A stretch of 52,414 nucleotides of DNA from a bacterium (lineage in GTDB: Bacteria; JAJVIF01; JAGGVT01), in contig JAGGVT010000156.1 of the NCBI GenBank assembly GCA_021157815.1, forward strand, positions 1-52,414. Reading direction: 5' to 3'. The translations under genes and the position numbers were made by a program. Every line of letters starts with the position of its first letter. Positions within the stretch are counted from its first letter, which is position 1. Positions 8,584 to 45,895 of this stretch are shown one piece after another. Under the pieces are notes generated by a model. The model did not search any database and was not told the origin of the DNA. It was given only the letters and a program-made list of their open reading frames with translations.

Positions 8584-11229
8584 ATGAAAGTGTTTTTTGG
8601 ATTCAAATTGATTTCCTGGGATGAACGAGGCGCGTCGCTTGTAGCCATCGCGATTATTTCTTTCTTCGTGGCGCTTGTTGCTCTGACTACACTTGCGTTG
8701 ACAAAAGCTGAAATCGAGTCTGTTGATGATCAGACCAGTGTTCAGCAGGCGAAGCTGGTTGCCGAGGTTGGATTGGAGCATGCTCTTGTGGGCCTGCGCC
8801 AGGGTCAGGACGACTATGTCCCCGAGGAAACCGAGGGTCTTCGCGATATGACCATGCAGGAGTTGTCTGATTACCTGCGCGACCCGGAATCCAACAGAGG
8901 GGTTGTTTATGATGAGGATCCCGACAGAACGTATTATTCCGCAATGGAGAAAACGAATATTGAATCGACTCCTTCCCCAACCTTCGAGACCATTCCCGGT
9001 GACAGTGCAAAGATAAACCTCACTTATGTTGATGACACAACTGTTGTTCGCGACATGAAAGAATATGATTACCAAAAACGTGTCGATAAGAATGAAAACT
9101 ACATCGTTTCACTTGGTGAGTCTCGCCGCAGCGATTCAGATGCTCGAAGCGCGATCAGCGCGAAATCATTTGAGGAATCGTCCACAATACTGGAACGGCG
9201 TGAGGTTCAGACTCAGGTTTTTAATGAAAATCATCTTGACCCGCCATATATCGAATCGGAACATGATTCCTATGACAGCAGCCTCAACAGAAGCTGGGTT
9301 GTTTCATATCCGAACGACCCATCAAACCAGTATCGTGGAATAACTGGAATCAACGTGGTAATTGACCAGGCGAGTCTTGGGCTTGGTTCCGTTGGCGATA
9401 CGCTTTCCTTCAGTTCGTGGAATGAGGCGACATCATCGTTTGACCCGCCATTTGATATTCTGTCGGGACCGCTTTCTGAAGGAACGTTGATGTATCAGTC
9501 AGCTTCACCAATTCCGACCAAGGCGATTAAAATCACGATGCTTACGGATTCGACTGATGATACGGCAAATGCCACTGCCAACTACGGATTTAAAGTAACC
9601 GGAATTGAGTACCATTATGACAGCGATGTTATCGAAGCATGTTATGAAACACCCCATCCTTATTCTGAAATTGAAAACAACATTTCATTCGCTGCCAAAC
9701 CGGATTTAATCCAGGTTATCTATTCTCCTTACGCTTTGCCAACATGGCGTGTAAATCCCATTGAGAAACCGGGGGATGGCATTGTTCTGCCCTGGGACAA
9801 GGATGAGCTTGCCACGGAGTTACCTGAAAATGAAGGCAGCGGAAGTTTAAGCGAGAGCTTGTATGAAAAGATCCGTCTTAAAAATGTAGGCGGTAATGAA
9901 TATCAGGTTATGCGGATTCATTTTGACAGTGAGTTCTATATAGAAAGCGGTGATGTACTGGATGTTTTCAATGGTAATACGGGTGCGATGATTGCATCCT
10001 ATACCGGCGCTGCCGGTGCGAATGCATACACGCCGTATGCTTTCCGTTCGAATCCCGATTTCCCGCTTGCCCTGATTCTCATGCTGCGACGCGACGGCAA
10101 CAACGATGAGCTTCCCGATCCGTATGGATATAAAGTTGATATTCTTGAATACAGTGATGAGAATGGCAACAGGGCTGTTATTTACAATCCTGTGCAGGGA
10201 ACGGCTCATGCTGAAAATATTGGATACAACGACGGCATGGCTGGAGCGATGAGAACTAATTTTGTCTTCAAGCCTGGTCCGCCTGAAATGGGTGGAACAG
10301 TTACAAACTGGAAAGTTGTATTCGACTGGGACGCGGATCTTCTGAATCTGGCGTCTGATTCAGACAGAATAATTCTCAGAAGGTCAGCCATTACAGGTCC
10401 AATGGTTAATGATTTATATTTCGTTACACCGGATGGCACTTATGGAGGCAATATTGGTGTTGTTCCGGGTTATATCAACATTAGTGAATTACGCCATTAT
10501 ATAATTGATATGGGCACAAGGTTCTGGCTTGAGATAATCACTGAATTCGATACCGAGAATTCATTCGCGAGAGTTGTGTCGAACCATGGATGGAGCATAT
10601 CTCACATTGAGGTTGCTTATAACAATGCCATTGCCGTCGATAACACAGCGCCAAGGTTGAGATCATCGTCGGTTACGCTAAAGTCGGCGGAAACCTGCGA
10701 AGCGACGCTTCTGAATCTTGAGTATCCATCATTTGGAAGCGAAGCTGATAATCGTGGTGAATGGTGGGTGAATTCAAAAGACCAGAAACAAATCCTTCTG
10801 CATTTTGACCTTGAGAGTTTCCGTCTTGAAGAGAATGACGCTATTTACATTTACAATGAAAATGGCTACTTGATGAAACTTATCCGTCCGGAAGGATATG
10901 ATGATAGTGGATTTACACATGGTGGAATATACGATCCGGACAATGATGACACGGGCGGCGGGACCATTGGATTTGAATTCCCGCCCAATCCGCCTGAAGA
11001 ATTAATCGAATCGCACGGTTGGGTTATCGTTACATCCGATTCAGCTCAGATTGTGCTTATGGGTGACGGCTCACCGAATATCGGATATTCCGGGTTCGAC
11101 ATCGACCGTATTGCATACTGGAGTCCTGTGGTAAATATTCGTAACATCATGACTGAATTCAGTTCAGATGATACGGATGAGTATTCGTTTAAGGTTACAG
11201 ATCCGGTCGATAAATTCCGTCAGTATTAA
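8584..11229 (+). CDS. PilX-like minor pilin with repeated CUB-like modules
   Basis: 881 residues. The N-terminus has a short basic leader ending ERG, then a 25-residue hydrophobic helix (ASLVAIAIISFFVALVALTT) with no glutamate at position 5, as in PilX/GspK-type minor pilins. The first ~80 residues (TSVQQAKLVAEVGLEHAL) match the PilX N-terminal helix. The rest is an unusually long ectodomain: about four beta-rich modules near residues 220-345, 430-525, 545-680 and 695-860, each with a pattern recalling CUB domains (for example MRIHFDSEFYIESGDVLDVF, then GYKVDILEY). CUB-like domains bind partners or sugars outside the cell. It is first in the prepilin operon. Start ATG 8584, with GGAGGTTAA upstream. 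Confidence 0.72.
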   Translation: MKVFFGFKLISWDERGASLVAIAIISFFVALVALTTLALTKAEIESVDDQTSVQQAKLVAEVGLEHALVGLRQGQDDYVPEETEGLRDMTMQELSDYLRDPESNRGVVYDEDPDRTYYSAMEKTNIESTPSPTFETIPGDSAKINLTYVDDTTVVRDMKEYDYQKRVDKNENYIVSLGESRRSDSDARSAISAKSFEESSTILERREVQTQVFNENHLDPPYIESEHDSYDSSLNRSWVVSYPNDPSNQYRGITGINVVIDQASLGLGSVGDTLSFSSWNEATSSFDPPFDILSGPLSEGTLMYQSASPIPTKAIKITMLTDSTDDTANATANYGFKVTGIEYHYDSDVIEACYETPHPYSEIENNISFAAKPDLIQVIYSPYALPTWRVNPIEKPGDGIVLPWDKDELATELPENEGSGSLSESLYEKIRLKNVGGNEYQVMRIHFDSEFYIESGDVLDVFNGNTGAMIASYTGAAGANAYTPYAFRSNPDFPLALILMLRRDGNNDELPDPYGYKVDILEYSDENGNRAVIYNPVQGTAHAENIGYNDGMAGAMRTNFVFKPGPPEMGGTVTNWKVVFDWDADLLNLASDSDRIILRRSAITGPMVNDLYFVTPDGTYGGNIGVVPGYINISELRHYIIDMGTRFWLEIITEFDTENSFARVVSNHGWSISHIEVAYNNAIAVDNTAPRLRSSSVTLKSAETCEATLLNLEYPSFGSEADNRGEWWVNSKDQKQILLHFDLESFRLEENDAIYIYNENGYLMKLIRPEGYDDSGFTHGGIYDPDNDDTGGGTIGFEFPPNPPEELIESHGWVIVTSDSAQIVLMGDGSPNIGYSGFDIDRIAYWSPVVNIRNIMTEFSSDDTDEYSFKVTDPVDKFRQY

Positions 11230-11230
11230 A

Positions 11231-11299
11231 TTTCCCGGGTGTTTAATGAACACCTTTGGGAAACAGCCTGGGATAATGGCGTTGTATCAACTAACGCCA
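11231..11299 (+). promoter_or_regulatory. Intercistronic hairpins between the PilX- and PilV-like genes
   Basis: Two stems: TTTCCC-GGTGTT-TAATG-AACACC-TTT-GGGAAA (nested, 11231-11263) and TGGCGTT-gtatcaact-AACGCCA (11277-11299). There is no T-tract, so they are more likely RNA-stabilising or processing elements than terminators. Confidence 0.45.
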
Positions 11300-11317
11300 A
11301 ACGGGAGTAAACAGATA

Positions 11318-12946
11318 ATGAGAGCATTAAGAAGTAAAATATCTGAATTAATCTCCTCTGATGCTGGTTTTACGCTTCTTGAAGTTGCGTTTGCCGGTGC
11401 GATAATGGTTATTGTCGGACTTGCTTATCTTGGAACCATCTCTCAGAGCATTTCAATCGCGCAGCTTTACACGGATCAGAACCAGGCGAATATATTAATC
11501 GAACGCGAGATAGAAGTTCTTAGAAATACGAAATTCGATACGATTCCCTTTAAGCAAACATCAGAACCGGACAAGCTCGAGGAAGTTCCGGATTATTACG
11601 ACAATATTGCAATCGCCAATCTTGATCCACTTGAACCGGGCTTTGTCGGGTCAAGCGGCGATCAGCTTGATTGCGACGATTTCAACGTGTTCGATAGTGT
11701 TCGTGCCAGCGATGAAAATAGCAAACGATGGATGGCTGTTGAAAATGGGCCTCTTGTTACAGCCGGCAGTTTTGTGCCAAGAACTGATGAGCCAATTATC
11801 ATCGATAACCCGGACGATCCAACTGAACCAATCATTATCAATCCACAGGATTATCAGTTTCCCATGGAGATTAACAGCGAAAGCCAATATGTTTATGTTG
11901 CTTTCCAGAAGTTGCAGAAAATTCACAGGATTATTTACGATAACCGGTTTAATGTTCGAGGAGACGATTCGCTTCCTGATACGGATATTGATTACCGATG
12001 CCAGCGAAACAGCATCTGGCAGAGGGATTATCAGATTTTCATTTCAGCCGATAGTGAAATAATGCCCGGTCTCCCATTCAGGCCTGATTACAATTCAACC
12101 GAGGTAATCCAGGAAGAAACGGAGCTGGGATACGGTTCAACGGGATTAATTGAGGTTTACAATAACTTTGAAGAACCGCTTGAAGCTACCGTTCTCGGTG
12201 TGGCGAATATATCTGTGGAAACGGATTTTGATTCCACATACCATTATCCTTATGCAACCGAGCTTGAAGCGTATGGTTACAAACTGGCAACATCCTATAA
12301 GGAGCGGTATGTGTTCGAAAATGGCGATGTTCATGTAGGCAACTATATAATGTTCATGCCCAAATACCTTGATTCCGGTTTCGACCTTTTCAGGCGGATT
12401 TATCTGGTTGAGGGTGAAACTGATTTCCCGCCCACACTGCAAAAACAGCCTTTGTACAGGATTCAGCTGAAGATTTACATGCATGACGATTCACGCAACA
12501 CGGATAGTTTTGTGAAGGAATTCTGGTGGCAGGAGGACGACAAGGAAATCATGGAATTTACCATGACCCTGGCAAGGAAAGTTACACCTGCTCAGGATAA
12601 CCTTCCGGGCCTGCAGGATTTGCCAAGGCATACCTACTATTATAACGATGAAGATGCCGAGTTTTCCTATACTATTCCGGGTGCGAATCGAATAAGGGCG
12701 CATTTTAGCACATTCGAACTGCAGAATTATCCGGATACCGATTACTTGGAGTTTTATGACAAGACGGGTGACCAGTACGGTGGACAGTATTTTGGGACCA
12801 TGATATCGTTATTCAGCCTTGGCCCATACAGCCCGTGGGTTGATGGTGATACAATTAAAATTCAATTCAAATCAGATGATTATGCGTCCAGTATTCCGAA
12901 CGCGAATCTTGACGGATTTGAAGTTGACTTTGTTGAAATTGATTAA
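11318..12946 (+). CDS. PilV-like minor pilin with C-terminal CUB-like domain
   Basis: 542 residues from ATG 11318 (GGGAG upstream; the frame is open from 11168 but overlaps the previous gene). A leader ending SSDAG is followed by FTLLEVAFAGAIMVIVGLAY, a type III prepilin signal with Glu5, as in PilV/GspI-type minor pilins. The ectodomain is very large for this family (typical PilV is 130-180 residues). The last ~110 residues (RIRAHFSTFELQ, then YLEFYDKTGDQYGG, then DTIKIQFKSDDYASS and LDGFEVDFVEI) read like a CUB beta-sandwich. The middle has a proline-acidic stretch (DEPIIIDNPDDPTEPIII). Second gene of the operon; an adhesive role is inference. Confidence 0.72.
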   Translation: MRALRSKISELISSDAGFTLLEVAFAGAIMVIVGLAYLGTISQSISIAQLYTDQNQANILIEREIEVLRNTKFDTIPFKQTSEPDKLEEVPDYYDNIAIANLDPLEPGFVGSSGDQLDCDDFNVFDSVRASDENSKRWMAVENGPLVTAGSFVPRTDEPIIIDNPDDPTEPIIINPQDYQFPMEINSESQYVYVAFQKLQKIHRIIYDNRFNVRGDDSLPDTDIDYRCQRNSIWQRDYQIFISADSEIMPGLPFRPDYNSTEVIQEETELGYGSTGLIEVYNNFEEPLEATVLGVANISVETDFDSTYHYPYATELEAYGYKLATSYKERYVFENGDVHVGNYIMFMPKYLDSGFDLFRRIYLVEGETDFPPTLQKQPLYRIQLKIYMHDDSRNTDSFVKEFWWQEDDKEIMEFTMTLARKVTPAQDNLPGLQDLPRHTYYYNDEDAEFSYTIPGANRIRAHFSTFELQNYPDTDYLEFYDKTGDQYGGQYFGTMISLFSLGPYSPWVDGDTIKIQFKSDDYASSIPNANLDGFEVDFVEID

Positions 12947-13005
12947 TATATGATACGTTTGAGATTTGAGTTATAATCGGATTTATGAGAGTATTAGAGG
13001 TTATT

Positions 13006-13058
13006 ATAAAGTGTAAACTTTATTAAATGATGGGGAATAAGCAGTTAAATGAAACTGC
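13006..13058 (+). promoter_or_regulatory. Intercistronic hairpins before the PilW-like gene
   Basis: ATAAAGT-GTAA-ACTTTAT (13006-13023) and GCAGTT-aaatga-AACTGC (13041-13058) lie in the 142-base gap between the PilV-like and PilW-like genes. Likely RNA structures that tune expression within the operon. Confidence 0.4.
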
Positions 13059-13088
13059 GGAGGTTCGTGGAGAAAAGGCAAGTTTAAA

Positions 13089-13757
13089 GTGGCAAGAGCG
13101 AAATATCAAAATATCCTGACACCATTCCTCAATGAGGATGGGTTTACCTTGCTTGAGGCAGTTATCGCATCCGCGATAACTGCTGGAACGCTGGTTATTG
13201 TTCTGCTGTTCAGCATGCGCTCATTTGAAATAGCGAGCGAGATAAATACTGTGAACGATGTCAATCATTCGTTCAGGCGCACCCAGAGAGCTTTTGTGCG
13301 TGATGTTCAGATGGCGCAGTATTTCTTTTTTGGCGCTGATGTGGATAATGAAAACAATCAGATTCCAAATGAGTTTATTGACAGAAGAGTTTTGACAGTT
13401 GGCCGCGAGAATGAAGATGGTGAGATGATCTGGTCGCGGTACGCGGTAAAAATTGGTACCGAGACAACAATATATTATCTTCTTGTTACTACAAACGAAC
13501 TTGAAGGCGCTGAACATTTCGAGACGAATATCATCGCCACAAATGTGCAGGACATGTATTTCGTTTACTATGACGAGGATGATATTGAAACAACAAAGGC
13601 TGAGGATGTTCGTCGAATTGAAATGACACTTGTTCTCGAAGAGAATAATGTTACAGAAATGATGCATTTCTCTTCGACTCTCAGGGGAAAGAATCTTGGA
13701 GTCGCCCTTCCTGATGAGAATATTGAAGTTCATCAGAATACGAACTTTGTGAAATAA
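13089..13757 (+). CDS. PilW/GspJ-like minor pilin
   Basis: 222 residues starting at GTG 13089; an AAGG lies ~10 bases upstream. Leader MARAKYQNILTPFLNEDG, then FTLLEAVIASAITAGTLVIV with Glu5. After the helix come FRRTQRAFVRDVQMAQYFFF, and later IATNVQDMYFVYYDEDD with RRIEMTLVLEENNVTEMMHF. This pattern is usual in GspJ/PilW minor pilins, which sit near the tip of the pilus or pseudopilus. Third in the operon after the PilX- and PilV-like genes, the order found in minor-pilin clusters. Unlike the two before it, it has normal length and no CUB-like part. Confidence 0.78.
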   Translation: MARAKYQNILTPFLNEDGFTLLEAVIASAITAGTLVIVLLFSMRSFEIASEINTVNDVNHSFRRTQRAFVRDVQMAQYFFFGADVDNENNQIPNEFIDRRVLTVGRENEDGEMIWSRYAVKIGTETTIYYLLVTTNELEGAEHFETNIIATNVQDMYFVYYDEDDIETTKAEDVRRIEMTLVLEENNVTEMMHFSSTLRGKNLGVALPDENIEVHQNTNFVK

Positions 13758-13768
13758 AACAGCGAATT

Positions 13769-14302
13769 ATGAACTTTTTTGAAAGACATACAAATCACCT
13801 TTTGGGCAATGCCTACGATGACAGCGGTTATACGTTAGTCGAAATGCTGTTTGTATGCATGATTATCGTAACAATTGCGATGATGAGCATGGGAGCATAC
13901 AGCAAGCAGAGGAAGTTCGGAATTGAGTCGATTTGTGTCACCAAACTCAAGCAGATTGCGCAGTATCAGGAATCATACAGAGACATTGGCGACCCGTCGT
14001 TGAATCCTGATGCATCATACGGAACGTTTTTCAATTTGCAGAATGCCGGGTTCATTCCATCGTGCTTTGTGTCGGCTGATAATGAAGCTCACGATGTCGA
14101 AGCGTTTATTAGGTATTACAAGATAGAGATTGTACGATCACCGACAGGACTGACCGAGGAGCCTGATAGAAACCAATATATGGTATTTGCTTCACCGATA
14201 GGGGCGCCGTACAAGAAAATGCGGATTTTCATGATGCAGGAAGATGGTGAGGTTTATTTCTTTTCAAACAATACTGACGGTGCGCGTATAGTCTGGGAAT
14301 AA
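13769..14302 (+). CDS. Type IV prepilin-like protein 1 of the tandem array
   Basis: 177 residues, leader of 20 ending YDDSG, then YTLVEMLFVCMIIVTIAMMS with Glu5. Position 1 is tyrosine instead of phenylalanine. The globular part has KLKQIAQYQESYRD, AFIRYYKIEIVRS and QYMVFASPIG...RIFMMQEDGEVYFF, the layout shared by most members of the array: an aromatic spine helix, a YS-type strand and a C-terminal DG turn. It starts 11 bases after the PilW-like gene and overlaps nothing. The role as a pilus or pseudopilus subunit is from the signal and context; which is the major subunit cannot be said. Confidence 0.8.
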   Translation: MNFFERHTNHLLGNAYDDSGYTLVEMLFVCMIIVTIAMMSMGAYSKQRKFGIESICVTKLKQIAQYQESYRDIGDPSLNPDASYGTFFNLQNAGFIPSCFVSADNEAHDVEAFIRYYKIEIVRSPTGLTEEPDRNQYMVFASPIGAPYKKMRIFMMQEDGEVYFFSNNTDGARIVWE

Positions 14303-14346
14303 TGTGCATATTACTGTCAGCGGTTTCCGCGGGACAGGAGCCTGAT

Positions 14347-14847
14347 ATGAAGTTCACTGAAATGAGAGACATATTGAAAGTACATGATGACAATGGATAT
14401 ACAATCCTTGAGGTTATCATGGTGGCGATGATAATCGGCATATTGATTACCATAGGCACGGCGCATTACCTCGAAGCCAGACGGCTGGCATCGGAGCATC
14501 TATGCGCCACAAGGCTTGCCAATATCGATGTGTATGAAAAAATGTATTATCGCCAATATGCGACATACGCCACATTTCAGGAACTTCAGGATGAGGGTTT
14601 CATTGATGCGGCATATACAGCGCATGATGATGTTCTGTCCAATGCAACACCATATATCCCCGAGTATTTCATGACGTTTAATATCTCAAGTGATACATAC
14701 CAGGTGTCGGCACAGACGGTTCATGGTGATTTCAACGCCGTTTATGTTCGCTGGCGCATGTCCGGCGGACTTGAAGACAAACGGGGCATGTTTGTTGATC
14801 AGACGGGAGTTGTCAGATATCTCTATAACAGACGTCCCGTGTTTTAG
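14347..14847 (+). CDS. Type IV prepilin-like protein 2
   Basis: 166 residues from ATG 14347 (AGGAG 6 bases upstream; an earlier ATG at 14302 overlaps the previous stop codon but lacks this site). Leader MKFTEMRDILKVHDDNG, then YTILEVIMVAMIIGILITIG, Glu5 present. Next are LANIDVYEKMYYRQYATYAT and ELQDEGFIDAAY. The C-terminal part (TVHGDFNAVYVRWRMSGG) diverges from the other array members and lacks the FIxxYS motif. It is followed 3 bases later by the next prepilin gene. Confidence 0.78.
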   Translation: MKFTEMRDILKVHDDNGYTILEVIMVAMIIGILITIGTAHYLEARRLASEHLCATRLANIDVYEKMYYRQYATYATFQELQDEGFIDAAYTAHDDVLSNATPYIPEYFMTFNISSDTYQVSAQTVHGDFNAVYVRWRMSGGLEDKRGMFVDQTGVVRYLYNRRPVF

Positions 14848-14850
14848 TTT

Positions 14851-15399
14851 ATGACTGGAGAAAGAGTGTTTAATCATTACGGCATATTCAGTAATTCAGA
14901 TTTGGAAAGCGGCATGACGCTGGCAGAGATTCTGGTTGTCATTGGGATTATCTTGATAATCGGGACACTCGCAATACCGAGTATCGTGCAGGTAAAGCGC
15001 AGGCATTTCGAGGATATCGCGATGCTTAAGCTCAAGGATGCCGCGAATGCAGAGAAACGCTACTTTCAGCAGTACAACAGGTTCGGGAAATATTATGAGC
15101 TTGTTGATGCCGGATTCCTGCCACATGGTTACACAACGAGGCTTGAATACTGGGGCCCAATTACAGGAATAAGCACAAGACCGTTCATTGAAGCGTACAG
15201 TGTTCGATTCCTGGTGCCGGAAAGTCCGAATTCGCTCTATTTTAAAATCGTGGCGTATCCTGTTGATGAGGCGCTTGGGCTCAGGGCATTTAATGTTAAT
15301 ATGTATCTGAACTTCGAGGGCAGGCCGGATTTAATATACCAGGACCCGCCTTTGAGAAATGGATTGCTGGATGACGGTTTGCCGATAGGGCATATTTAA
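14851..15399 (+). CDS. Type IV prepilin-like protein 3
   Basis: 182 residues. Leader of 21 ending LESG, then MTLAEILVVIGIILIIGTLA: Met at +1 and Ala at +4 are unusual, Glu5 is kept. It then has LKDAANAEKRYFQQYNRFG and ELVDAGFLPHGY. FIEAYSVRFLV and FKIVAYPVDEALGLRAF match the shared array signature; a C-terminal extension (PDLIYQDPPLRNGLLDDG) is specific to this member. It begins 3 bases after member 2, so the two are likely translated together. Confidence 0.8.
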   Translation: MTGERVFNHYGIFSNSDLESGMTLAEILVVIGIILIIGTLAIPSIVQVKRRHFEDIAMLKLKDAANAEKRYFQQYNRFGKYYELVDAGFLPHGYTTRLEYWGPITGISTRPFIEAYSVRFLVPESPNSLYFKIVAYPVDEALGLRAFNVNMYLNFEGRPDLIYQDPPLRNGLLDDGLPIGHI

Positions 15400-15464
15400 T
15401 AAAATAGTCAGTTTTGGGTAATAACTATATGGAAGAAAGGTCGGAATAAATCAGGAAGAATCGG

Positions 15465-15929
15465 ATGGCTTTGAGAATGGACAGAAACAGGCAGAAAGAA
15501 TCAGGATTCACGCTAATCGAGGTGCTGGTAGTTGTTGGTATTCTTGGAATCCTCGCGGTTCTGGCGATTCCATCACTGACCGGGACTGAAAGGTCGGCGA
15601 GGGAATCGGCGTGTGTCCGGGGTTTGCGCTCACTGGCTGATGCGGAAGAGATTTACTATGTACATCAGAAGCATTATCCCGGCGGCGAGGATGGCGTCCA
15701 CTGGTTTCGCCTTAGAAGCGTAGATGCCATCGACCCGAAAGTCTATAAAGGAAGCAAGAATGATTCGTTCATTCGCGACTATTCACTGTTATTCTATTCG
15801 ATTGGCCCATGGGCGCAGGCGTATTCGGTTGTGGCATACCCGATTAATCCTGAGCTGGGGATGCGGACTTTTATTATGAAAGATGACGGTATCATCAGAA
15901 ACACTGATAACGAGCCGATTAGGGGCTAA
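15465..15929 (+). CDS. Type IV prepilin-like protein 4
   Basis: 154 residues, textbook signal: MALRMDRNRQKESG leader, then FTLIEVLVVVGILGILAVLA with Pro at ~22. The helix continues ACVRGLRSLADAEEIYYVHQ; the globular part contains SFIRDYSLLFYS, YSVVAYPINPELGMRTF and KDDGIIRNTDNEP. This is the clearest example of the array's C-terminal signature. One cysteine is visible at ACVRG, so no disulfide loop of the classical pilin kind. It stands 65 bases after the previous stop and 51 before the next ATG. Confidence 0.84.
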   Translation: MALRMDRNRQKESGFTLIEVLVVVGILGILAVLAIPSLTGTERSARESACVRGLRSLADAEEIYYVHQKHYPGGEDGVHWFRLRSVDAIDPKVYKGSKNDSFIRDYSLLFYSIGPWAQAYSVVAYPINPELGMRTFIMKDDGIIRNTDNEPIRG

Positions 15930-15980
15930 TTTTTACAAGGCTGTTGTTTGATAAAAAAACAAAAAGAGCGGAAGCGCGTT

Positions 15981-16475
15981 ATGACTGAAAACTTTAACAG
16001 AAAGAAAGACAAAAACGGATTCACGCTGGTGGAGATACTGGTCGTTGTTGGAATCCTTGGCATAATCACAGTACTTGCGATTCCGGCATATTCGAGAGTG
16101 CAGAATTCCGCTCTGGAAGCGGGAGCGGTAAAAGGCCTGGAAGCGGTCTATAGCGCTTATCAGCTTTACTATCGCGACCACGGATATTATCCGCCCGCGC
16201 GATCAACATATACAACAGAGTTCTATCATCATGTCAGGATGTATCTTCCCAGAGACCTTACAGATGCTTCCGTTACAGACAGTTTTATAAAAGGCTACGA
16301 GTTAAGGGCGCTGACAAGGCCATTCGCTGGTGGTGTGGTTGAGAATGGGCTCATACGGGGTTCGCATTATTTTACAATCATGGCGATTCCGGTGAACACA
16401 AATCGAGGTTTAAGGACGTTCTTTATCGAACCGAACGGAATTGTTACTGACGGCAATACTGAAAACCCGATTTAA
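15981..16475 (+). CDS. Type IV prepilin-like protein 5
   Basis: 164 residues from ATG 15981 (GGAAG six bases upstream; a TTG at 15948 is in frame but gives a 24-residue leader). Leader MTENFNRKKDKNG, then FTLVEILVVVGILGIITVLA. Next comes ALEAGAVKGLEAVYSAYQLY, then YYPPARSTYTTEFYHHVR, then DSFIKGYELRALT, FTIMAIPVNTNRGLRTFFIE and PNGIVTDGNTENP. It is closest in its first 60 residues to member 4, suggesting duplication. The next gene's start lies 40 bases downstream. Confidence 0.83.
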   Translation: MTENFNRKKDKNGFTLVEILVVVGILGIITVLAIPAYSRVQNSALEAGAVKGLEAVYSAYQLYYRDHGYYPPARSTYTTEFYHHVRMYLPRDLTDASVTDSFIKGYELRALTRPFAGGVVENGLIRGSHYFTIMAIPVNTNRGLRTFFIEPNGIVTDGNTENPI

Positions 16476-16515
16476 TGAAATCGGGATGATGAAAATAAAT
16501 TCGAGGTATCGTTGC

Positions 16516-16992
16516 ATGAAAAGCTCGAAAGACATATTTAAAAATAACAGTGGTTTCACGCTGATAGAAATCCTGCTTGTTGTTGCGATAATCGCGATTC
16601 TGGTAACGATGGCGATTCCGCAAATTACCGGAACCCGCCATTCAAGCTATGAACTAAGCGCGATGCGTGCGTTGAAAGCTGTAGGCGCGGCGCAGCAGGC
16701 ATACAATAACGCATACGGCACTTTCATTCCGTATGAATGGCTGCAGGCGCGTAATTATATCTCGCCGAACTATCTCAAAGGTTCCGTTTCGGACAGGGGC
16801 AGGATAGCGAAGCATTATTCAATCAGGGTAATTATCGATGGCCCTATCACGACCCCGAGAGGTGTGAGATATACGGGATTCAGTGTAATAGCTGTCCCCG
16901 ACAGGGGTTTCGGGTTGAGGTATTTCAGATTGCAGGAGGATGGCGAAATTGAGCAAAGCGCGTCGGGAGCAGGGGGCTGGGAAGTAAGGTAG
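16516..16992 (+). CDS. Type IV prepilin-like protein 6
   Basis: 158 residues from ATG 16516 (GAGG 9 bases before); ATGs at 16486 and 16489 are alternatives. Leader MKSSKDIFKNNSG, then FTLIEILLVVAIIAILVTMA with Glu5 and Pro22. It has AMRALKAVGAAQQAYNNAYG, WLQARNYISPNYL, AKHYSIRVIIDG and FSVIAVPDRGFGLRYFRLQE plus a short DGEIEQ turn and glycine-rich tail. The signature is present with IAKHYS in place of FIxxYS. Confidence 0.82.
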   Translation: MKSSKDIFKNNSGFTLIEILLVVAIIAILVTMAIPQITGTRHSSYELSAMRALKAVGAAQQAYNNAYGTFIPYEWLQARNYISPNYLKGSVSDRGRIAKHYSIRVIIDGPITTPRGVRYTGFSVIAVPDRGFGLRYFRLQEDGEIEQSASGAGGWEVR

Positions 16993-17072
16993 TTAAATTA
17001 GAACGGCGGTTTTTCGCCTGAGATAAAATATTTTCTGAAGCTCGATCAACTAACAGTGGAGCTGCAATAGAA

Positions 17073-17549
17073 ATGGTGAATCGATTGAAAATAATAAAAA
17101 ATGATGAGGGTTTCACCCTCTTGGAAATACTTGTCGTGGCATTTATAATTTCAATTCTGGTCACGATGGGAATAACCAGTTTCATCAAAACTCGCCAGCG
17201 TGGAATAGAAGCCGCGGGCATGCATGGGATGCAGGCTCTTGGCGCGGCGATGCAGGCGTATCACAACGACTACGGCCGATTCACGAATTTCTATTCACTG
17301 CAGCCGGCATATATTGAAGCTGGTGTAAGGCTGAGCGATACATATCCGCCGAGGCCAAATCCGTTTATCAGGCACTTTTCGCTCTCATGGACCTTTGCTT
17401 CCGCACAACCGCATATATTCAGTATTAATGCGATTGGGATATATGACCACTGGCGCGCTGGAAATGACAGAATTGAGTTGATGATTACTAATAATGGAGT
17501 ATTGAAAAAACGTCAGGCGGGTGTGGGTGAGTTTGTGCCTGCGAATTAA
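17073..17549 (+). CDS. Type IV prepilin-like protein 7
   Basis: 158 residues, leader MVNRLKIIKNDEG, then FTLLEILVVAFIISILVTMG. Next is GMHGMQALGAAMQAYHNDYG, followed by FIRHFSLSWTFASAQPHIFS and INAIGIYDHWRAGNDRIELM, ending with a TNNGVLKKR turn. The shared GxRxF step is replaced by an insertion with two aromatic residues. A Shine-Dalgarno-like GGAG lies ~12 bases before the ATG at 17073. It is followed by 227 bases that hold two palindromes before the next prepilin gene. Confidence 0.82.
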   Translation: MVNRLKIIKNDEGFTLLEILVVAFIISILVTMGITSFIKTRQRGIEAAGMHGMQALGAAMQAYHNDYGRFTNFYSLQPAYIEAGVRLSDTYPPRPNPFIRHFSLSWTFASAQPHIFSINAIGIYDHWRAGNDRIELMITNNGVLKKRQAGVGEFVPAN

Positions 17550-17567
17550 GTGTAACTGACTGGCAGC

Positions 17568-17639
17568 AGCCCGGTTTCTCATTAACCGGGATTATGACAA
17601 GTTAAGTTGTGTTTTCCCCGGTTAATGAGAAACCGGGCT
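17568..17639. repeat. Perfect 23-base inverted repeat inside the pilin operon
   Basis: Arms AGCCCGGTTTCTCATTAACC...(23 bases) match their reverse complement perfectly across a 26-base loop. It lies between prepilin genes 7 and 8 and ends CGGGCTAC, so it resembles the GTAACCCGG family by its outer ends. A strong RNA hairpin here could separate upstream from downstream expression. Confidence 0.8.
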
Positions 17640-17708
17640 ACGAAGAAGTAAGTGGCATAACTGGATTTTTTGATTGAAGAGGTTATGTGCGGGTTGAGTT
17701 AGATTTTT

Positions 17709-17729
17709 CCCGGGAAATGGATTCCCGGG
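17709..17729. repeat. Short palindrome CCCGGGAA...TTCCCGGG
   Basis: CCCGGGAA-ATGGA-TTCCCGGG, then CTAC. It lies 48 bases before prepilin gene 8, is similar in sequence to the 87-139 element, and may be a reduced copy of the same family. Confidence 0.65.
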
Positions 17730-17776
17730 CTACATAGAAAAAAACGACTGGTTCAGTGAAAGTGTTGTGAGGTAAT

Positions 17777-18247
17777 ATGAACTTCATAAGAAATAAAATG
17801 AACAATGATAGCGGTTTTACGCTTATCGAAATGGTGCTTGTGGCGCTGATGGTTCTGATTCTAGCCACGATGGCCATTGCGAGCATGCGCAGGGCGCGTG
17901 AGGCAGGCCTTGAAACGGCCGCCCAGAAAGCTCTGAAATCGCTGGCTGAATCGCAGGAAATGTTCTACCAGGACAACTATGATTACGCGGATGATTTCAG
18001 CCAGCTTCTTCAGCGATATCTGCCGCGAACATATACTGACGCGGACAGGTCGAATGGTTTTATTCGTTCCTACAGCGTCCTGTTCCAGGTAAATGGCACA
18101 CCTGTACTTGGAACGAGCCGTATCGCCCAGAACAGTGTCTATCCCAATTACACGATATACGCAGTTCCGCTTGCCAGTAATCTCTCGCTAAGAACCTATT
18201 GGATAACGCAGTCAGCGCGTGTTTCCGATTATGTGGCACTGCCATGA
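17777..18247 (+). CDS. Type IV prepilin-like protein 8
   Basis: 156 residues. Leader MNFIRNKMNNDSG, then FTLIEMVLVALMVLILATMA. It has ALKSLAESQEMFYQDNYDYA, LLQRYLPRTYTDA, GFIRSYSVLFQV and YTIYAVPLASNLSLRTYWIT, so the shared signature is complete up to the final strand, where DG is missing (TQSARVSDYVALP). It ends 13 bases before the start of the next gene at 18261. Confidence 0.82.
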   Translation: MNFIRNKMNNDSGFTLIEMVLVALMVLILATMAIASMRRAREAGLETAAQKALKSLAESQEMFYQDNYDYADDFSQLLQRYLPRTYTDADRSNGFIRSYSVLFQVNGTPVLGTSRIAQNSVYPNYTIYAVPLASNLSLRTYWITQSARVSDYVALP

Positions 18248-18260
18248 CAGAGGACAACCG

Positions 18261-18734
18261 ATGAGATTGAATATTACAAATAGATATTTGAAAGACGAAA
18301 AGGGATTTACCCTTATCGAGGTTCTCACAGTAGCCGCGATGATTGCCATACTCGCGACAGTGGCACTCGCCAGCATGCATAGAAGCAGGGAGGCGGCTTA
18401 TGAAGCGCAGGCAATCGGCGCGCTTCGAACGCTGTCAAGCATGGAATATGTTTATTTCTTCGATAACAAAGTGTTCGCTGACTGGCATCAACTGCAGGCT
18501 GTGGGTGATTTGGTCGATTCGGATTATGTCAAAGCGGACGATATGGATAACGCGTTTGACCATCCGATCGCAATGAAATACTCGCTGCATTTTGTAATCA
18601 ACGATAACGGCAGTGATTTTACAATTTACGCTTATCCCCAGTTGACAGCGCATTATTACTTGAGAGCTTTCAGTGTTTTTAGTGATGGCGCGATTAATAA
18701 CGCGGGATTTGAATTGAACCCAACATCGCCGTAG
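18261..18734 (+). CDS. Type IV prepilin-like protein 9
   Basis: 157 residues from ATG 18261 (AGAGGA 6 bases before; a frame opening at 18219 would overlap the previous gene). Leader MRLNITNRYLKDEKG, then FTLIEVLTVAAMIAILATVA. Next are AIGALRTLSSMEYVYFFDNK, DWHQLQAVGDLVDSDY and AMKYSLHFVINDN, then FTIYAYPQLTAHYYLRAF and SDGAINNAG. It carries the array signature with MKYSL for FIxxYS and LRAF for GxRxF. Confidence 0.82.
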   Translation: MRLNITNRYLKDEKGFTLIEVLTVAAMIAILATVALASMHRSREAAYEAQAIGALRTLSSMEYVYFFDNKVFADWHQLQAVGDLVDSDYVKADDMDNAFDHPIAMKYSLHFVINDNGSDFTIYAYPQLTAHYYLRAFSVFSDGAINNAGFELNPTSP

Positions 18735-18820
18735 CGGTGTTGAAATAGAAATTATTATTTTGTTTAACGAAAGAAACTGATTCTTGCTGATATGAGATTC
18801 AGATAACATCGGAGGCAGCG

Positions 18821-19258
18821 ATGATAAAAATGTTTAATAATCTTCTCCACAGGAATGACCGGGGATTTACACTACTGGAACTTCTGGTGGTCAGTTCGAT
18901 TATCGGAATTCTTGCGGCGATAGCCATCCCATCGCTTGGCGGGTCGCGTCGAAGCGCGTTGCAGGCGGCTTGTGTCAAGGGATTGAAATCAATTTGCGAC
19001 AGTGAGGAGATGTTCTATCGCCTGAACGGGCGCTACACGGATAACTGGAGCGAGCTGGATGACTTTCTGCCAAGCGCGTATTCAAGCTATGCGATGAAGC
19101 GTTATTTCATCGAGTCATACAGCCTGCAATTTTCAAGTGATCCATCTCGACAGACTTTTACCGTTTATGCATGGCCTTACTATGGCAAGATGCGACTTGG
19201 CACTTTCAAGATAAACGATGAGGGTGTTGTTACCACAGAGACCAACAGGCCGGTTTAA
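18821..19258 (+). CDS. Type IV prepilin-like protein 10
   Basis: 145 residues, the shortest member. Leader MIKMFNNLLHRNDRG, then FTLLELLVVSSIIGILAAIA with Pro22. It has ACVKGLKSICDSEEMFYRLN with two cysteines nine residues apart, YFIESYSLQFSSDPSRQTF, WPYYGKMRLGTF and INDEGVVTTETNRP. GGAGG lies about 5 bases before the ATG, the strongest ribosome site in the array, and the gene has an 86-base gap in front; it may be among the better translated. Its stop overlaps the first possible ATG of the next reading frame (TAATG). Confidence 0.84.
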   Translation: MIKMFNNLLHRNDRGFTLLELLVVSSIIGILAAIAIPSLGGSRRSALQAACVKGLKSICDSEEMFYRLNGRYTDNWSELDDFLPSAYSSYAMKRYFIESYSLQFSSDPSRQTFTVYAWPYYGKMRLGTFKINDEGVVTTETNRPV

Positions 19259-19290
19259 TGATATTTCAGTATTTTGCTTTTTGGAAAGTC

Positions 19291-19899
19291 ATGTTGAAGA
19301 ACATTTTTCTACATAATGAATCCGGCCATACATTGGTTGAAATCCTTGCTGTTTGCGGCATAATAACGATACTTGCGACCATTCCGGTAGCGTATATGCG
19401 TGAGGCGAAAATCCGTGCGAATGAAACAGCCGCTCTGGGCGCGCTTAATCAAATGGCAGCCGCGTATGAGATGTACCGCGTGGTTGGCGACCGCCAGCGC
19501 TTCTATCCGCATTTCTATTCACATGGTTTAATCACTGATACGGTTACTTTTCACAATCCTGAGGAAATATGGGATGAGCTAATCAGGCAGGGACTTTTGC
19601 CGTACAAGTACGCAGCTAATAATCACAATACGCCGAACCTGCTGGCACCAGGTTATTCTTTTTCAATCTACCCGGTAAATTATGACGTAGTGGATAATTA
19701 CAGCATTAATCCGTGGGATAGTTATGCCTTCGCGCTGATTCCATTTCCCGGAAGCCGTCAACCCAGAACAATGGCGCTTATTCATGGTGAGTATTTCGAT
19801 CATTATTTTACAAACGCCCGCGCGTATAAAACATCATCAACATCGTCGGACATTTCAGACGCGCGGATATTCACTTTCAAGGACCCTGAGCCTGATTAG
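19291..19899 (+). CDS. Type IV prepilin-like protein 11 (longer form)
   Basis: 202 residues from ATG 19291, which gives a 12-residue leader MLKNIFLHNESG with GGAAAG just before it; an ATG at 19258 overlaps the previous stop but would add a hydrophobic stretch atypical of a leader. Mature start HTLVEILAVCGIITILATIP with His at +1. Next is ETAALGALNQMAAAYEMYRV, then a long insertion (VGDRQRFYPHFYSHGLITDT) and ELIRQGLLPYKYAANNHNTP. The C-terminus (PRTMALIHGEYFDHYFTNAR) diverges. Members 11 and 12 share the longer form and ELIRQGxLP/LTREGxLP, suggesting a sub-group. Confidence 0.8.
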   Translation: MLKNIFLHNESGHTLVEILAVCGIITILATIPVAYMREAKIRANETAALGALNQMAAAYEMYRVVGDRQRFYPHFYSHGLITDTVTFHNPEEIWDELIRQGLLPYKYAANNHNTPNLLAPGYSFSIYPVNYDVVDNYSINPWDSYAFALIPFPGSRQPRTMALIHGEYFDHYFTNARAYKTSSTSSDISDARIFTFKDPEPD

Positions 19900-19921
19900 A
19901 AACAGGATTAAATCAGGTGGC

Positions 19922-20518
19922 ATGCGAGTTTTGCTTTTGAAATTGGAAAATAGAAAATCGATATCTAACAACGACATGGGGTTCACTTTGCTTGAGCTCC
20001 TTATCGTTTGCACTATCATTGGCATATTGGCAACGATGTCGGTCTCACTTGTAAGTCGCGCGCGAGTGAACGCTCGTGAGACTGCGGCAGTTGTCACACT
20101 GAATTCATTCGCAGGCGCCTGGGAATCATACTGGGCACGACACGGCACGTATCCTCACTGGGGCGAGGGCATGAAATATTCCGATCCGCAGCAGCTGTTC
20201 AGAACGCTTACTCGTGAGGGATATCTGCCATCAGCCTATAGCCAGGTGCCGTATTATGAACCTGACAAGCAGTTTTACCAAATCACCGATGACTATGCTC
20301 TTGAGATTTTTCCGTTCACTGACGGCGACGGAAGACGTGCGCCATCTAATTACTACTGGCTGCTCTTGCATCCACTGGGATTTCAAAGACAACAGGGATA
20401 TCTTGGAATAGGAACTGATTCGAGTTGTGGAAAAGCGGCGGTTAGGGTGCGTCTTGGTGACTCGAGAGGTGATATTAACCAGTTTACGATTTATAGCCTT
20501 CACCACAGGGAAAATTAA
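19922..20518 (+). CDS. Type IV prepilin-like protein 12 (longer form)
   Basis: 198 residues from ATG 19922. Leader MRVLLLKLENRKSISNNDMG, then FTLLELLIVCTIIGILATMS with Glu5. Next is ETAAVVTLNSFAGAWESYWA, then HGTYPHWGEGMKYSDPQQLF and LTREGYLPSAY. The C-terminal part (YALEIFPFTDGDGRRAPSNY) holds a possible acidic loop (TDGDG); its function is not known. Last gene of the prepilin array. A 361-base gap with a new promoter separates it from pilM. Confidence 0.8.
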   Translation: MRVLLLKLENRKSISNNDMGFTLLELLIVCTIIGILATMSVSLVSRARVNARETAAVVTLNSFAGAWESYWARHGTYPHWGEGMKYSDPQQLFRTLTREGYLPSAYSQVPYYEPDKQFYQITDDYALEIFPFTDGDGRRAPSNYYWLLLHPLGFQRQQGYLGIGTDSSCGKAAVRVRLGDSRGDINQFTIYSLHHREN

Positions 20519-20879: not shown

Positions 20880-22073
20880 GTGGCTTTACCGTTTTTAAAC
20901 ACCACCCCCAAGAAAGCTCTGGGTTTGCATATTGGCGCCAGTCAAATCAGAGTGGTGGAGATTGAACGGGGCAAGGCTGATTTGATGCTGACGAATATCG
21001 GCTGGATTGAAACGCCGTCAGAAGCGTATGTGGGCAGCCACCTGGAAAACCCCAGCATAATCGCTGGCGCGGTTTCCCGTCTGCTTGCATCGCGAAACAT
21101 CCGAACGAAACGTGTGTTGGCGACAATTGATGCAAACGATACTATCGCGCGAACGATATTGCTTCCATCCATGGCAAAAAAAGATCTTAGAAAAGCGATT
21201 ATTTTCGAGATGGAAGCTTCTCTGCCATCAACTGGTGAAGAGAATATTCTCGATTACCAGGTTCTCAGGGTTTTCGAAAATCCCGAGGATAACTCCGAGC
21301 AGGTGTCAGTGTTGATTCTCTCGACCCAAAGGCAGAATACTGTCGCCGTGGCCGAGGCTATGACACAGGCTGATTTGAAGCCGGTTGCGATTGACCTTAC
21401 TCCGGTTGCCTCTTTCCGCGCTGAGAAGCGAAGTGACACATATTTGGAAAATGGAGAGGACCTGATAATAATCACGATTAATGACCGATGCACGGACCTC
21501 ACGATTATCAACCAGGGTAACGTTAGATTTGTGCGTTCACTGCCGATAGGTTCCGCAAATATTCTAGATGCCATAGGTGAAAAGCCCTTGTTCAACGATG
21601 TGGTTGACCGACTGGCAAAGGAGCAGGAAAAAGAACATGAACCCGCTGATGAACCTGAGGATGAAGTGAAAGCGTTTGACCCGTTCGGCGGTTCTGATGC
21701 TCCATCACCATTTGCAGGCAGCGCCGGCCAGCCCATGATGATGGATAAAGACGAAAAACCGGGTATCGGTCGCATTGAAAGTTTGATTACTGAACTTGCC
21801 GACGAAACTCTGAATACAATGCGATACGGCCAGTCTATTGGCAAGGAACAGACCGATGTCAAGTACGCGATGTTAAACGGTTATTTCCCATACAAGGAAG
21901 AATTTATTTCAAGTTTGAAGGAAAAACTTGGCCAGGACGTTTACCCGGGAGACCCGTTCTCCTCTCTTGATTTGACAAGTCCTGGACTGGAGGAAGAATT
22001 GATTGACAGGTTTGCTCCAAACTTTTCTGCGGCATGCGGTCTTGCGCTGAGGGGGGTGGGTGAGTATGAATGA
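20880..22073 (+). CDS. pilM: Type IV pilus assembly protein PilM
   Basis: 397-residue actin-like ATPase that sits on the cytoplasmic face and binds the tail of PilN. The N-terminus (KKALGLHIGASQIRVVEIER) has the phosphate-1-type loop, then VLATIDANDTIARTILLPSM and KAIIFEMEASLP, typical of PilM, and IDLTPVASF. Residues ~247-300 are an acidic, proline- and glycine-rich insertion (EHEPADEPEDEVKAFDPFGG and a MMMDKDEK stretch) absent from short PilM proteins. The start is GTG 20880 with GGAGG five bases upstream; an ATG at 20878 is out of frame. The last bases overlap pilN. Confidence 0.88.
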   Translation: MALPFLNTTPKKALGLHIGASQIRVVEIERGKADLMLTNIGWIETPSEAYVGSHLENPSIIAGAVSRLLASRNIRTKRVLATIDANDTIARTILLPSMAKKDLRKAIIFEMEASLPSTGEENILDYQVLRVFENPEDNSEQVSVLILSTQRQNTVAVAEAMTQADLKPVAIDLTPVASFRAEKRSDTYLENGEDLIIITINDRCTDLTIINQGNVRFVRSLPIGSANILDAIGEKPLFNDVVDRLAKEQEKEHEPADEPEDEVKAFDPFGGSDAPSPFAGSAGQPMMMDKDEKPGIGRIESLITELADETLNTMRYGQSIGKEQTDVKYAMLNGYFPYKEEFISSLKEKLGQDVYPGDPFSSLDLTSPGLEEELIDRFAPNFSAACGLALRGVGEYE

Positions 22074-22656
22074 TGATTATCTCATTAATTTACTCCCGTC
22101 AGAATATTTGCCCAAGCCGGAATTCAAAGGATTTCCGCTTTTTGTTATCGCTGTTCTTGTGCTTGTTGGCGTGTTTGTTTTTTTGGATAACACAAGAATA
22201 ACGGGCAGAATTAATACACTTAAGGAATTAAAAAAAAATCAAACAGCGTTGGTTAATAGGCGAACTCCGCTGGCATTGGAGGCTCTGGACGTTCAGGCGC
22301 GAAGCAGAGTGCTTTTTTCCTATGGTGTTTCCATTTGGTCAATGTTGCATCAGATCCCTCCCTGGATTGATGTCTATAATGAGATTGAGGAGAGTATTCC
22401 AAAGGGAATGTGGATTGAGAGCCTGACACTTGTCGGAGGGGGCGAAAGGAAATGGCCCAGTTTTACCATGGTGGGTATTGTCGCGGGAAACAAACCGGGG
22501 ACTGTATTGGATTTCTATGCATTAATGTTGGAACCGGATAGCAAGTTTGAGAAAGTCAAGATATCCGGTTATACATTTATCAAGCATGACAGGCAGGACG
22601 CGGTCATGTTTAATATGAGGTTCTCAATAAAGAAATCCGGATTTGAGGGTTTTTAA
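22066..22656 (+). CDS. pilN: Type IV pilus assembly protein PilN
   Basis: 196 residues. The N-terminus MNDDYLINLLPSEYLPK contains the conserved INLLP motif that docks onto PilM, followed by one membrane helix (PLFVIAVLVLVGVFVF), a coiled region and a ferredoxin-like fold. It forms the inner-membrane alignment subcomplex with PilO. The start at ATG 22066 (GTG 22060 is in frame) overlaps the last codons of pilM, indicating translational coupling. Assignment is secure from the motif plus the gene order. Confidence 0.87.
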   Translation: MNDDYLINLLPSEYLPKPEFKGFPLFVIAVLVLVGVFVFLDNTRITGRINTLKELKKNQTALVNRRTPLALEALDVQARSRVLFSYGVSIWSMLHQIPPWIDVYNEIEESIPKGMWIESLTLVGGGERKWPSFTMVGIVAGNKPGTVLDFYALMLEPDSKFEKVKISGYTFIKHDRQDAVMFNMRFSIKKSGFEGF

Positions 22657-24448: not shown

Positions 24449-24797
24449 TATTCTCCGGTTTGATTACTGGTGGATATAAATATAGGAAAAATGGTATAAT
24501 CCGTTGTTTTACAGGCGGGGAAATGGTTTTAGATTTGTGTTTTAACTGATATAATCGGCAACGTGATGGGAGGTTTCGAATTAGGTTTTCCGAACACCCG
24601 TCAATGTCTTTTATGAGGAGATTGATAATATATTTGCTTTAACTTTCAGTTATATTAAATGTATTAAAATCGGATTGGAATTCTTAACAAGGCGAAATAT
24701 GAAAACGATACAAATGCCGGGCAGTTTACATAGAGCGATGTCGGTATATAAGAACATCAGTAATCGAAACAACAAAAGCCGAGGAGTTTACCACTCG
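24449..24797 (+). other. Gap before pilQ with possible promoters
   Basis: About 349 bases. Two TATAAT boxes are visible (near 24494 and 24552); one has a TGGATA 18 bases upstream, so pilQ may have its own promoter, though the match is weak. In-frame start codons for pilQ exist at 24675 (TTG), 24699 and 24738, but the sequence before 24798 does not look like secreted protein. Confidence 0.4.
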
Positions 24798-27700
24798 ATG
24801 AGCCTTCCGAACGACCGAAGGATAAAAGCAATACGAAACTTAACCGGATTGTGCATACTTTTCGTGGTTCTAAGTTTCACGCAGGCCTCACGGGCAAATC
24901 CCATGGCCTCCACCACTCTGGATGATATCCGCTTTACCACATGCGGAGAGGGGTGTATCCAGGTGATTGTCAGCGGGTCCGGTGAACTGGATCCCGGACA
25001 GGCAACCTATATCGCGAATCCAGCGAGACTTGTTTATGATTTCAAGGATACAGTCCTTGGATATAATGATGGTCGCACGCGCAAATTCCCGATCGAGGTT
25101 GGTGACCTTAACACAATTGGGATTTCCCAATACAAGCGTCATCCGGATGTGGTCCGGCTTGTTCTGTACTTCAGAAGCGGTAATGAGAAAAGCCTGCGTA
25201 ACACGATTCTGGCATCGAATGATGATGGCAAATTGGTTATGACATATTCTCTCGATGGCACCATGCCGGGAGTCGAAAAGATTCCGGGCGATAGTAATGG
25301 CCTTATCGACAAGCTTCTTCATCAGAGGATGGGTCCCGAAAGAGACCGTTTTGACCTTCATGGTGACATTGCCTTTGAGGATCCCGTTGTACGGTTTGTT
25401 AAAGGCGGATTAATCATTAACTTGAAAGGTATTCAATTTAAGGTGCCGGCGGAATCAGGCAATAACATGCAGGTACCTGTCAGTGGCGCGTTGATAGATG
25501 AAATACAGGTTGTGAATCAGCCTGATGGCGCTACTTTGTTCCTTCGAATCAAGGATTCCGCAAGGACATACCTGGTTGATTATGAGATTGATCGCAATGA
25601 TAGCATGTCATTGGGACTTGAAGTGCATCGATCATATCAGTCAGATTCGGGTAAGGAACTGGCTATACCGAAACCCAAACCTGTAACATCCAGCGATGGC
25701 AAAGTTACGGGCATGGTTTATGTGCTTGGAAGTTCGATGGAGAAAGGCGACTCCGTCGATGCCTCAGGCGTGTCAAGGATTATCAGGATCCAGTATCAGC
25801 CGCTTTCAATCGGTGAGAGATTCATCATTGAGGCTACCGGCGATTTCAATCCCAGTTTCCAGAAGCTCGGATTCCCAAATCGCCTGAACATGAGATCGGA
25901 CAACACGACTGTGATATTGCCCCGCGAAGCTGATGATAAGTTCCAGGTGAGAATTGAAGGCGCGATGTCCAAACTTATGAAGGTGTTCTTGAAGGATCAT
26001 GACGGCACACCTGAATCTGTAATCCAGTTTTATTATGAAATAGAAGAAAACGAAGATATTCAGTATGACCTGTATATCACAGATACCGAGAATGTTTATT
26101 ATCTTGATTTGATTCCAATAGCGATGTCTTATTCGGCAACTCCGCCTGTCAAGGTTGATATTCCGCTGAAACCCGAACAAGCCCCCATTGATTTGAAACC
26201 AGTAGTGACTATTCCGGTTGAACCGGTTAAAGCTGAGAAAGTCGAGACGGTAGAAGCGGAGACGGTTGAGCCCGAAGTGGAACCAGTCGAGGATGATGTT
26301 GTTTCCTTCAATATTCCCAATGAAACGGAATATGAATCGGTTGTCAGCATTCCAATATCACCCGACAAAATTGAAGAGACAGCTGAACCGGCAGAACCTG
26401 TAATGCCGATTGAACCTGAGATTGAAAAAGAACCTGAGGTAGTTGTCGAAAAGCCGGTTGAATCCATTGTCGAAATTGAAAAAAATTGTGAAGCCGCGCC
26501 TGAGCCAGTTAAGGCTGCTCCAGTGGAAACCTCACCAGTCAGGATTGAGTTTGTCAAACTTGATAATTTTGACAGGTTTATAATCTCAAGCGATACTCCA
26601 ATTGATGAATACAACCATAACGAGCTTAACTATCCGAGCCGGTTCGCGATTGAATTCCCGGGAAGGTCTATCGATTTCAATGCGCTGGAATCCGGCAAAT
26701 CGAGATACATTCAAGGTAACGCGACTGAAAGCGTTAGAATCATTGCGCGTGATTTACCTGTTCAAAAATCTGTATTCTACATATTCCTGAATGGCAAATG
26801 GGATGAGACTGACTGTGAAATATCAGGAAGCCCCAACAGGATTGTTATTGATGTCCGCTCGCTTGCTTCTCAAATTGAGGAACAGATAGATGAAACAATT
26901 ACAGAACCCACACCGGCGTTTTTCGAACCGGATATCATAGAGGTTGAACCTGAACCTGAACCTGTGGTTGAGATACCAAAGGTTGTTAACCCGGAGGTTG
27001 TTAAACCTGTAACTGTTGCAACAGTTGAACCAGAGGAAGAAGAAAGCAGGAGCATGTCTTTCCTGCTTGATGATGTTGAGCTGGACAAAGACGATGCAAT
27101 TGAAGAAGTTATCATAGAAGCGCCTGTAGTCGAGGTTATAGAGGAAGAGCCGATTGAGGAAGAGGTTGCTCCACTCGTTGAGGATGAGCCGATTCAAGAG
27201 GCTATTGTTGAAGAAGAAGACGATTTCATTGAAATAAAAGTCTCTGAAACCAAAGAGGAGAAACCGGAAGAGACTCAGGTTGCGGCGCTGTACCATAAGA
27301 CAGATGCTTTCCCGCTAAAGAAAGGCGAGATTAAGAAAGCGGATATATGCATTAATTCCATTAAGTTAAATGGGGGCACAGGGCTAGGCCAGATTATTGT
27401 TTACACAGATGGTGGCAGGATACCTGAGCCGGATGTTAAATGGTGGAACTATCCTGTCAGATTAAGTTTCGATTTCGATGATATTGGCGTTGATCTGAAT
27501 GGCGTTGATCCGACCAAATGGAGCAGCGATATTGACAGTACGGTAATAAGCAGGATTCAGGTAGATCAACATTCCGGCGGGCGAGTTCCGCTTGGCGCGT
27601 CGATGAATCTTTATCTCAACCCGGGATATGACAGTTCCAATATTTCCGTCAGCTTTGAACCTGTCAGCGATTCAGCTCTTAAAATTTCGTTTGTAGAACC

Positions 27701-45755: not shown

Positions 45756-45895
45756 GACTATCCCCAGTCTTGAAAAAGTTTTGAAATGCAAATTTCGCGT
45801 CCCGGATGTTACCTTGTTTTAAGAACATTCAAGAAGCGATTCCAACGTATGTATTTATAAATCTACCCCTAACCTAAAAGCCCCCTCTGCTTTTA

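Follow-up and report, generated by a model that had tools for sequence, protein, structure and literature searches.

CUB-like modules on two minor pilins of a bacterial type IV filament gene cluster

CUB domains are binding modules described mostly in animal proteins; complement proteases and cubilin are examples. The original prediction placed such modules on two adjacent minor pilins encoded in a bacterial window (the whole 52,414-nucleotide stretch of DNA analysed here), several on a PilX-like protein and one at the C-terminus of a PilV-like protein, and named a CUB profile search and structure prediction as checks. We asked whether these modules are CUB domains, where the two pilins would sit in a filament and what the modules would do there.

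The PilX-like and PilV-like pilins and their neighbors

The PilX-like protein (881 aa) is encoded by the open reading frame listed at 8584-11229 on the + strand, with a ribosome-binding site, GGAGG, at about 8567. Its PilX/GspK-like minor pilin part (8584..9237, +) has a class III pilin signal that reads DERG/ASLVAIAII, followed by a long N-terminal helix and the remainder of the pilin part. Among the 14 pilins of the cluster the PilX-like protein alone lacks Glu5, and this residue is also missing in the three PilX homologues of the class (4/4 with the window protein). Among the PilX homologues the family matched most often is GspK (NF037980; 3/4, best E 4.5e-4), and all of these matches are below curated cut-offs. 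K subunits lack Glu5, and K caps the HIJK complex (PMC9934059). As part of the overall explanation that we favor, we consider it fairly probable that the PilX-like protein is a K-like minor pilin.

The PilV-like reading frame is listed at 11168-12946 (+, 592 aa). Its probable start is the ATG at 11318, which is preceded by GGGAG and lies 89 bases past the stop of the PilX-like gene. Read from there, the gene encodes a PilV/GspI-like minor pilin (11318..12946, +) with the signal SSDAG/FTLLEV and with Glu5 present. The PilV homologues match the GspI (0.0047) and PilV (0.011) families, both below cut-offs; the best match to Pfam N_methyl among the homologues is 0.00039, and the window PilV itself gives 0.24.

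The next minor pilin gene (13089..13757, +) encodes a probable J subunit, PilW/GspJ-like and with Glu5 present, whose orthologue in a second genome of the class (G001) matches GspJ at 0.0029, below the cut-off. Eleven more small pilin genes follow (13769..20518, +), and the fourteen form one run at 8584-20518. This is far above the usual minor-pilin operon, and many of the pilins are small and alike in layout. Both the PilX-like and the PilV-like protein are conserved in three other genomes of the class at 28-40% identity, and another pilin gene comes after the pair in G001 and in G002 too. Homologues of the pair were found only in the four class genomes and in none of the other 55 genomes sampled.

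CUB modules on PilV and PilX

The C-terminal module of PilV (12623..12943, +) is 107 aa long and contains no cysteine. It covers residues 434-540, counted from window position 11324, in agreement with the predicted range of 430-542. When the four PilV C-termini were made into a profile and compared with PDB sequences, 13 of the 14 best matches were CUB proteins, including cubilin (8e-13), MASP-3, TSG-6, MASP-1, C1r, PCPE-1, MAp19 and MASP-2. Adding the fourth PilX module (M4) to the profile gave the same outcome (cubilin 1.5e-14, TSG-6 3.2e-4). The cubilin E-values sum several domains, and we put weight on the breadth of the CUB matches and on an independent profile.

The independent profile contains no pilin sequences; for a local search it was made as an HMM of nine bacterial non-pilin CUBs. 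With the pilin CUB profile as query, genomes of other bacteria yielded its source modules, which lie in S8 and M4 peptidases and further secreted proteins. Six such modules were aligned to make the profile, and each has a Pfam CUB match: the first scores 36 bits, which exceeds the cut-off, and the best E-value is 9e-10. With the independent profile we recovered the PilV C-terminus from all four class genomes (3.7e-12 to 5.6e-10); in the window's own genome it had no other match at E 0.001. Aligned to this profile by hhalign, the PilV module reached 99.1% (E 1.1e-18). In a local search at Z=5000 the nine-CUB HMM found the window PilV at 3.5e-12 and the whole window PilX at 1.5e-6, a value summed over several weak stretches, while the PilX homologue of G002 gave 5.3e-9. 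The best of 450 shuffled sequences reached 0.59, and unrelated reading frames from the window and two loci were weaker still. WD40 matches of the peptidase-CUB profile were rejected as repeat artefacts, being made up of many weak stretches with none significant alone.

Searches with single sequences were less sensitive to the module. Pfam CUB scored the whole PilV protein at 14.9 bits and the module alone at 18.0 bits, below the cut-off of 21.4; it gave no match on PilX and none in a search of the window's own genome, and phmmer of the single proteins against the PDB found no match. For the PilV module the profile search bears out the original prediction, with support from two independent profiles and their controls. 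On this evidence the identification of the PilV C-terminus as a divergent, cysteine-free CUB domain is well supported.

The modules of PilX span residues 219-847, close to the predicted 220-860. M4 (10645..11124, +) ends in GFDIDRIAY and matched the independent profile by hhalign at 97.5% (E 5.3e-12) and a larger profile at 98.0%; its HMM match is split by a long inserted loop. The PilV module aligned to M4 itself at 95% (E 2.5e-8). M1 (9238..9627, +) starts with YIESEH, ends with GFKVTGIEY and gave 92.7% (E 4.3e-7), or 94.2% with the larger profile. M2 (9631..10167, +), which runs from YETPHPY to GYKVDILEY and has a long insertion, gave 82.6% (E 9.7e-6), or 90.7%. For both M1 and M2, 0/80 shuffles reached the observed score. 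M2 is the weakest of the three matching modules, its match covering 74 columns only. M3 (10186..10626, +) matches in its end motifs only and gave 5.9%, or 21.2% with the larger profile, over just 26-27 columns. The motif G-[FYWLV]-x-[VIL]-x-x-[VIL] closes all five modules (PilV and M1-M4), and [EQGR]-[ST]-[PEA]-H ('ESPH/ETPH') opens M1-M3. We conclude from these comparisons that CUB identity is well supported for M4 and moderately supported for M1 and M2, and that M3 is a possible CUB-like module. CUB-like modules on both minor pilins are confirmed, both reading frames being present and the profile matches lying far beyond chance; the more specific claim of several CUB modules on PilX and one on PilV holds for PilV and M4 and moderately for M1 and M2, with M3 as a possible further case.

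Structure prediction yielded no usable fold. AlphaFold2 models of the full-length proteins from four-row alignments had a pLDDT of 41.6 for PilV and 39.0 for PilX, poor values that reflect the four homologues available for alignment, and they cannot serve as fold evidence. Foldseek with the PilX model returned mixed beta-sandwich matches, none at 0.001. These models and matches, together with the single-sequence Pfam scores below the cut-off, could also fit modules of some other beta-sandwich that acquired CUB-like motifs by convergence. We consider this very improbable, since CUB-specific matches came from two independent profiles with controls, and an unrelated segment of PilV used as a control in hhalign scored no better than its own shuffles. 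The profile-profile scores of the PilV module, M4, M1 and M2 lay above all 80-150 column shuffles, by 14-42 s.d.

The middle region of PilV (11669..12283, +) may hold a discoidin/CBM32-like (galactose-binding-like) fold, which we treat as a lead only. With the low-confidence PilV model, Foldseek returned the CBM32 of EndoD, the F5/8C domain of a chitobiase, DDR1 and neuropilin-2, with probabilities mostly of 0.9-1.0 and E-values of 7e-4 to 5e-2. The Foldseek table carries no query ranges, and the region was set by eye at residues about 116-320 from F5/8C-like sequence features. Sequence-profile searches for discoidin in this region gave no support, just one match at chance level.

Relation to bacterial and animal CUB domains

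The original prediction described CUB modules as mostly animal, and this needs correction: the CUBs nearest in sequence belong to peptidases that bacteria secrete, of the S8, M4 and trypsin-like types (loci L022-L026 and L067-L069). Like the PilV module these are cysteine-free, and they share with the pilin modules the ESPH/ETPH start, the GFxIDxV end and a profile match of 3.7e-12. The difference lies in the partner: the peptidase CUBs are joined to proteases that carry a secretory signal, the CUBs described here to pilins. In two other bacterial genera the CUB module lies inside the catalytic domain of an S8 peptidase (L024, 1477-1779; L025, 1486-1785), and three adjacent trypsin-like proteins on one contig (L067-L069) each have an N-terminal CUB-like module starting with ETPHPY. 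A search for CUB pilins elsewhere covered about 385 sampled genomes and two small phyla; those CUB-bearing proteins that were examined proved to be secreted peptidases or proteins of other kinds, none of them pilins. Since the nearest CUBs sit on bacterial secreted peptidases, it is simpler to suppose that domain shuffling brought the pilin modules from a bacterial source, and such a source is probable.

By profile, the CUBs of animal proteins (cubilin, TSG-6, C1r/C1s, the MASPs and PCPE-1) belong to the same domain family. In contrast to these, the PilV module has no cysteines, and the modules of PilX carry long insertions. The conserved cysteines of canonical animal CUBs are absent both from the PilV module and from the bacterial CUBs that match Pfam CUB, and because of the latter we did not count them as defining. 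The C1s residues Glu45 and Asp98 touch a lysine on the partner protein, and the Ca2+ site requires Asp53 (PMC4222235). In an alignment of the four PilV modules the equivalent of Asp53 never varies, nor does a Tyr close to the start, and animal CUBs share both. At the Glu position of the Ca2+ triad the window and G002 proteins have Gln and the other two keep Glu; the position equivalent to Asp98 holds either Asp or Asn. With the Asp53 equivalent kept and the other two positions variable, Ca2+ binding by the PilV CUB module is possible.

A candidate adhesin at the filament tip

Downstream of the pilin run we found genes for PilM (20880..22073, +; PF11104 2.5e-25; TIGR01175 2.5e-32, below the TIGR01175 cut-off), a weak PilN-like protein (22060..22656, +; PF05137 0.019) and a secretin of 1507 aa with the secretin part at its C-terminus (24675..29198, +). 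About 1000 residues lie ahead of the secretin part. The secretin matches GspD at 1.4e-45 and PilQ at 1.9e-35, both below the curated cut-off. Three PilT proteins score above the cut-off in the genome; their genes lie on other contigs and might belong to a different pilus. Searches of the four class genomes, including one that is 99% complete, did not find the tip adhesin PilY1. The minus strand at 44172-45791 encodes a FliF/YscJ flagellar M-ring protein. A flagellum, or an export system related to it, is therefore probable in this organism as well.

Besides the CUB homology, several observations speak for the explanation that we favor below: the pilin signals, the loss of Glu5 in PilX only, a gene order that fits K-I-J, the presence of both proteins in four genomes, and PilT. 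Against it stand the K, I and J family matches below curated cut-offs, a secretin score that is slightly higher for GspD than for PilQ, the location of the PilT genes on other contigs, the poor structure models, the partial match of M3 and the Gln in place of the triad Glu in the PilV module of the window. The family leads point to GspK, GspI, GspJ and GspD as much as to PilX, PilV, PilW and PilQ, and the locus could encode a type II secretion pseudopilus in which CUB-bearing K-like and I-like tip pseudopilins recruit or expel secreted substrates without any adhesion outside the cell. We regard this as unlikely, as PilM adjoining the cluster, along with the three PilT of the genome, speaks for a pilus that retracts, and fourteen pilins are many for a type II secretion system.

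We favor, as fairly probable, the explanation that PilX and PilV are K-like and I-like minor pilins of a type IV filament, enlarged by CUB domains (three or four in PilX and one at the C-terminus of PilV) into modular pilins that form a tip adhesin in place of PilY1. As members of an initiating K-I-J complex both would sit at the filament tip with their CUB modules facing outward. The predicted position of these minor pilins near the tip fits the K-like protein without Glu5, the I-like protein, the K-I-J gene order and the failure to find PilY1. The modules would bind an extracellular ligand, such as a glycoprotein, a polysaccharide or an exposed Lys/Arg-rich protein, some of them possibly through a Ca2+ site. 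The pilus would then attach and be pulled back by the PilT of the genome, and the PilX/PilV pair would take the part of PilY1 in this lineage, in which PilY1 was not found.

CUB on both tip partners might instead reflect a structural role, in which the modules stabilise or cap the tip complex or join PilX to PilV by CUB-CUB contacts, with no ligand outside; the CUB modules of C1r and C1s serve complex assembly (PMC4222235). However, the modular pilins examined to date display effector modules (PMC8179133), and three to four modules in PilX exceed the needs of a contact, which makes a purely structural role quite improbable in our judgement.

The closest precedent for the tip adhesin that we propose is provided by PilB and PilC of Streptococcus sanguinis, modular minor pilins that bind host proteins and glycans, have a predicted tip position and belong to a pilus without PilC/PilY1; the modules are a vWA domain in PilB and an Ig-like plus a ConA-like lectin domain in PilC (PMC8179133, PMC9934059). 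It is by analogy with these proteins that we suggest a tip-effector role for PilX and PilV. Both systems have large minor pilins with C-terminal binding modules, no PilC/PilY1 and a predicted tip complex. In contrast to S. sanguinis, here the module is CUB, several copies occur in one pilin, the K-like subunit itself carries them, and a diderm-type secretin is present. With the PilY1/PilC adhesin of diderm type IV pili the pair would share the role of tip adhesin; PilY1 is a non-pilin protein with a C-terminal beta-propeller, whereas PilX and PilV are pilins. A more elaborate version, in which a PilY1-free tip complex has CUB on both its K and I pilins and also a discoidin/CBM32-like domain on PilV, reminiscent of neuropilin, and thus an animal-type, partly Ca2+-dependent adhesive head, is conceivable but on balance doubtful.

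Modular pilins are already known, with 264 architectures counted (PMC8179133), and CUB on bacterial secreted peptidases was met repeatedly. What appears to be new here is CUB as a module grafted onto pilins: the text of PMC8179133, as distinct from its data set, does not mention CUB, and in the literature searched no paper links CUB with pilins as a grafted module. The PilV module, at 107 aa and without cysteines, is small enough for expression, which makes the claim directly testable. If it is true, CUB would join the modules that bacteria graft onto pilins, the CUB domains of bacterial proteases would be linked to pilus adhesion, and a lineage in which PilY1 was not found would have a candidate for its replacement.
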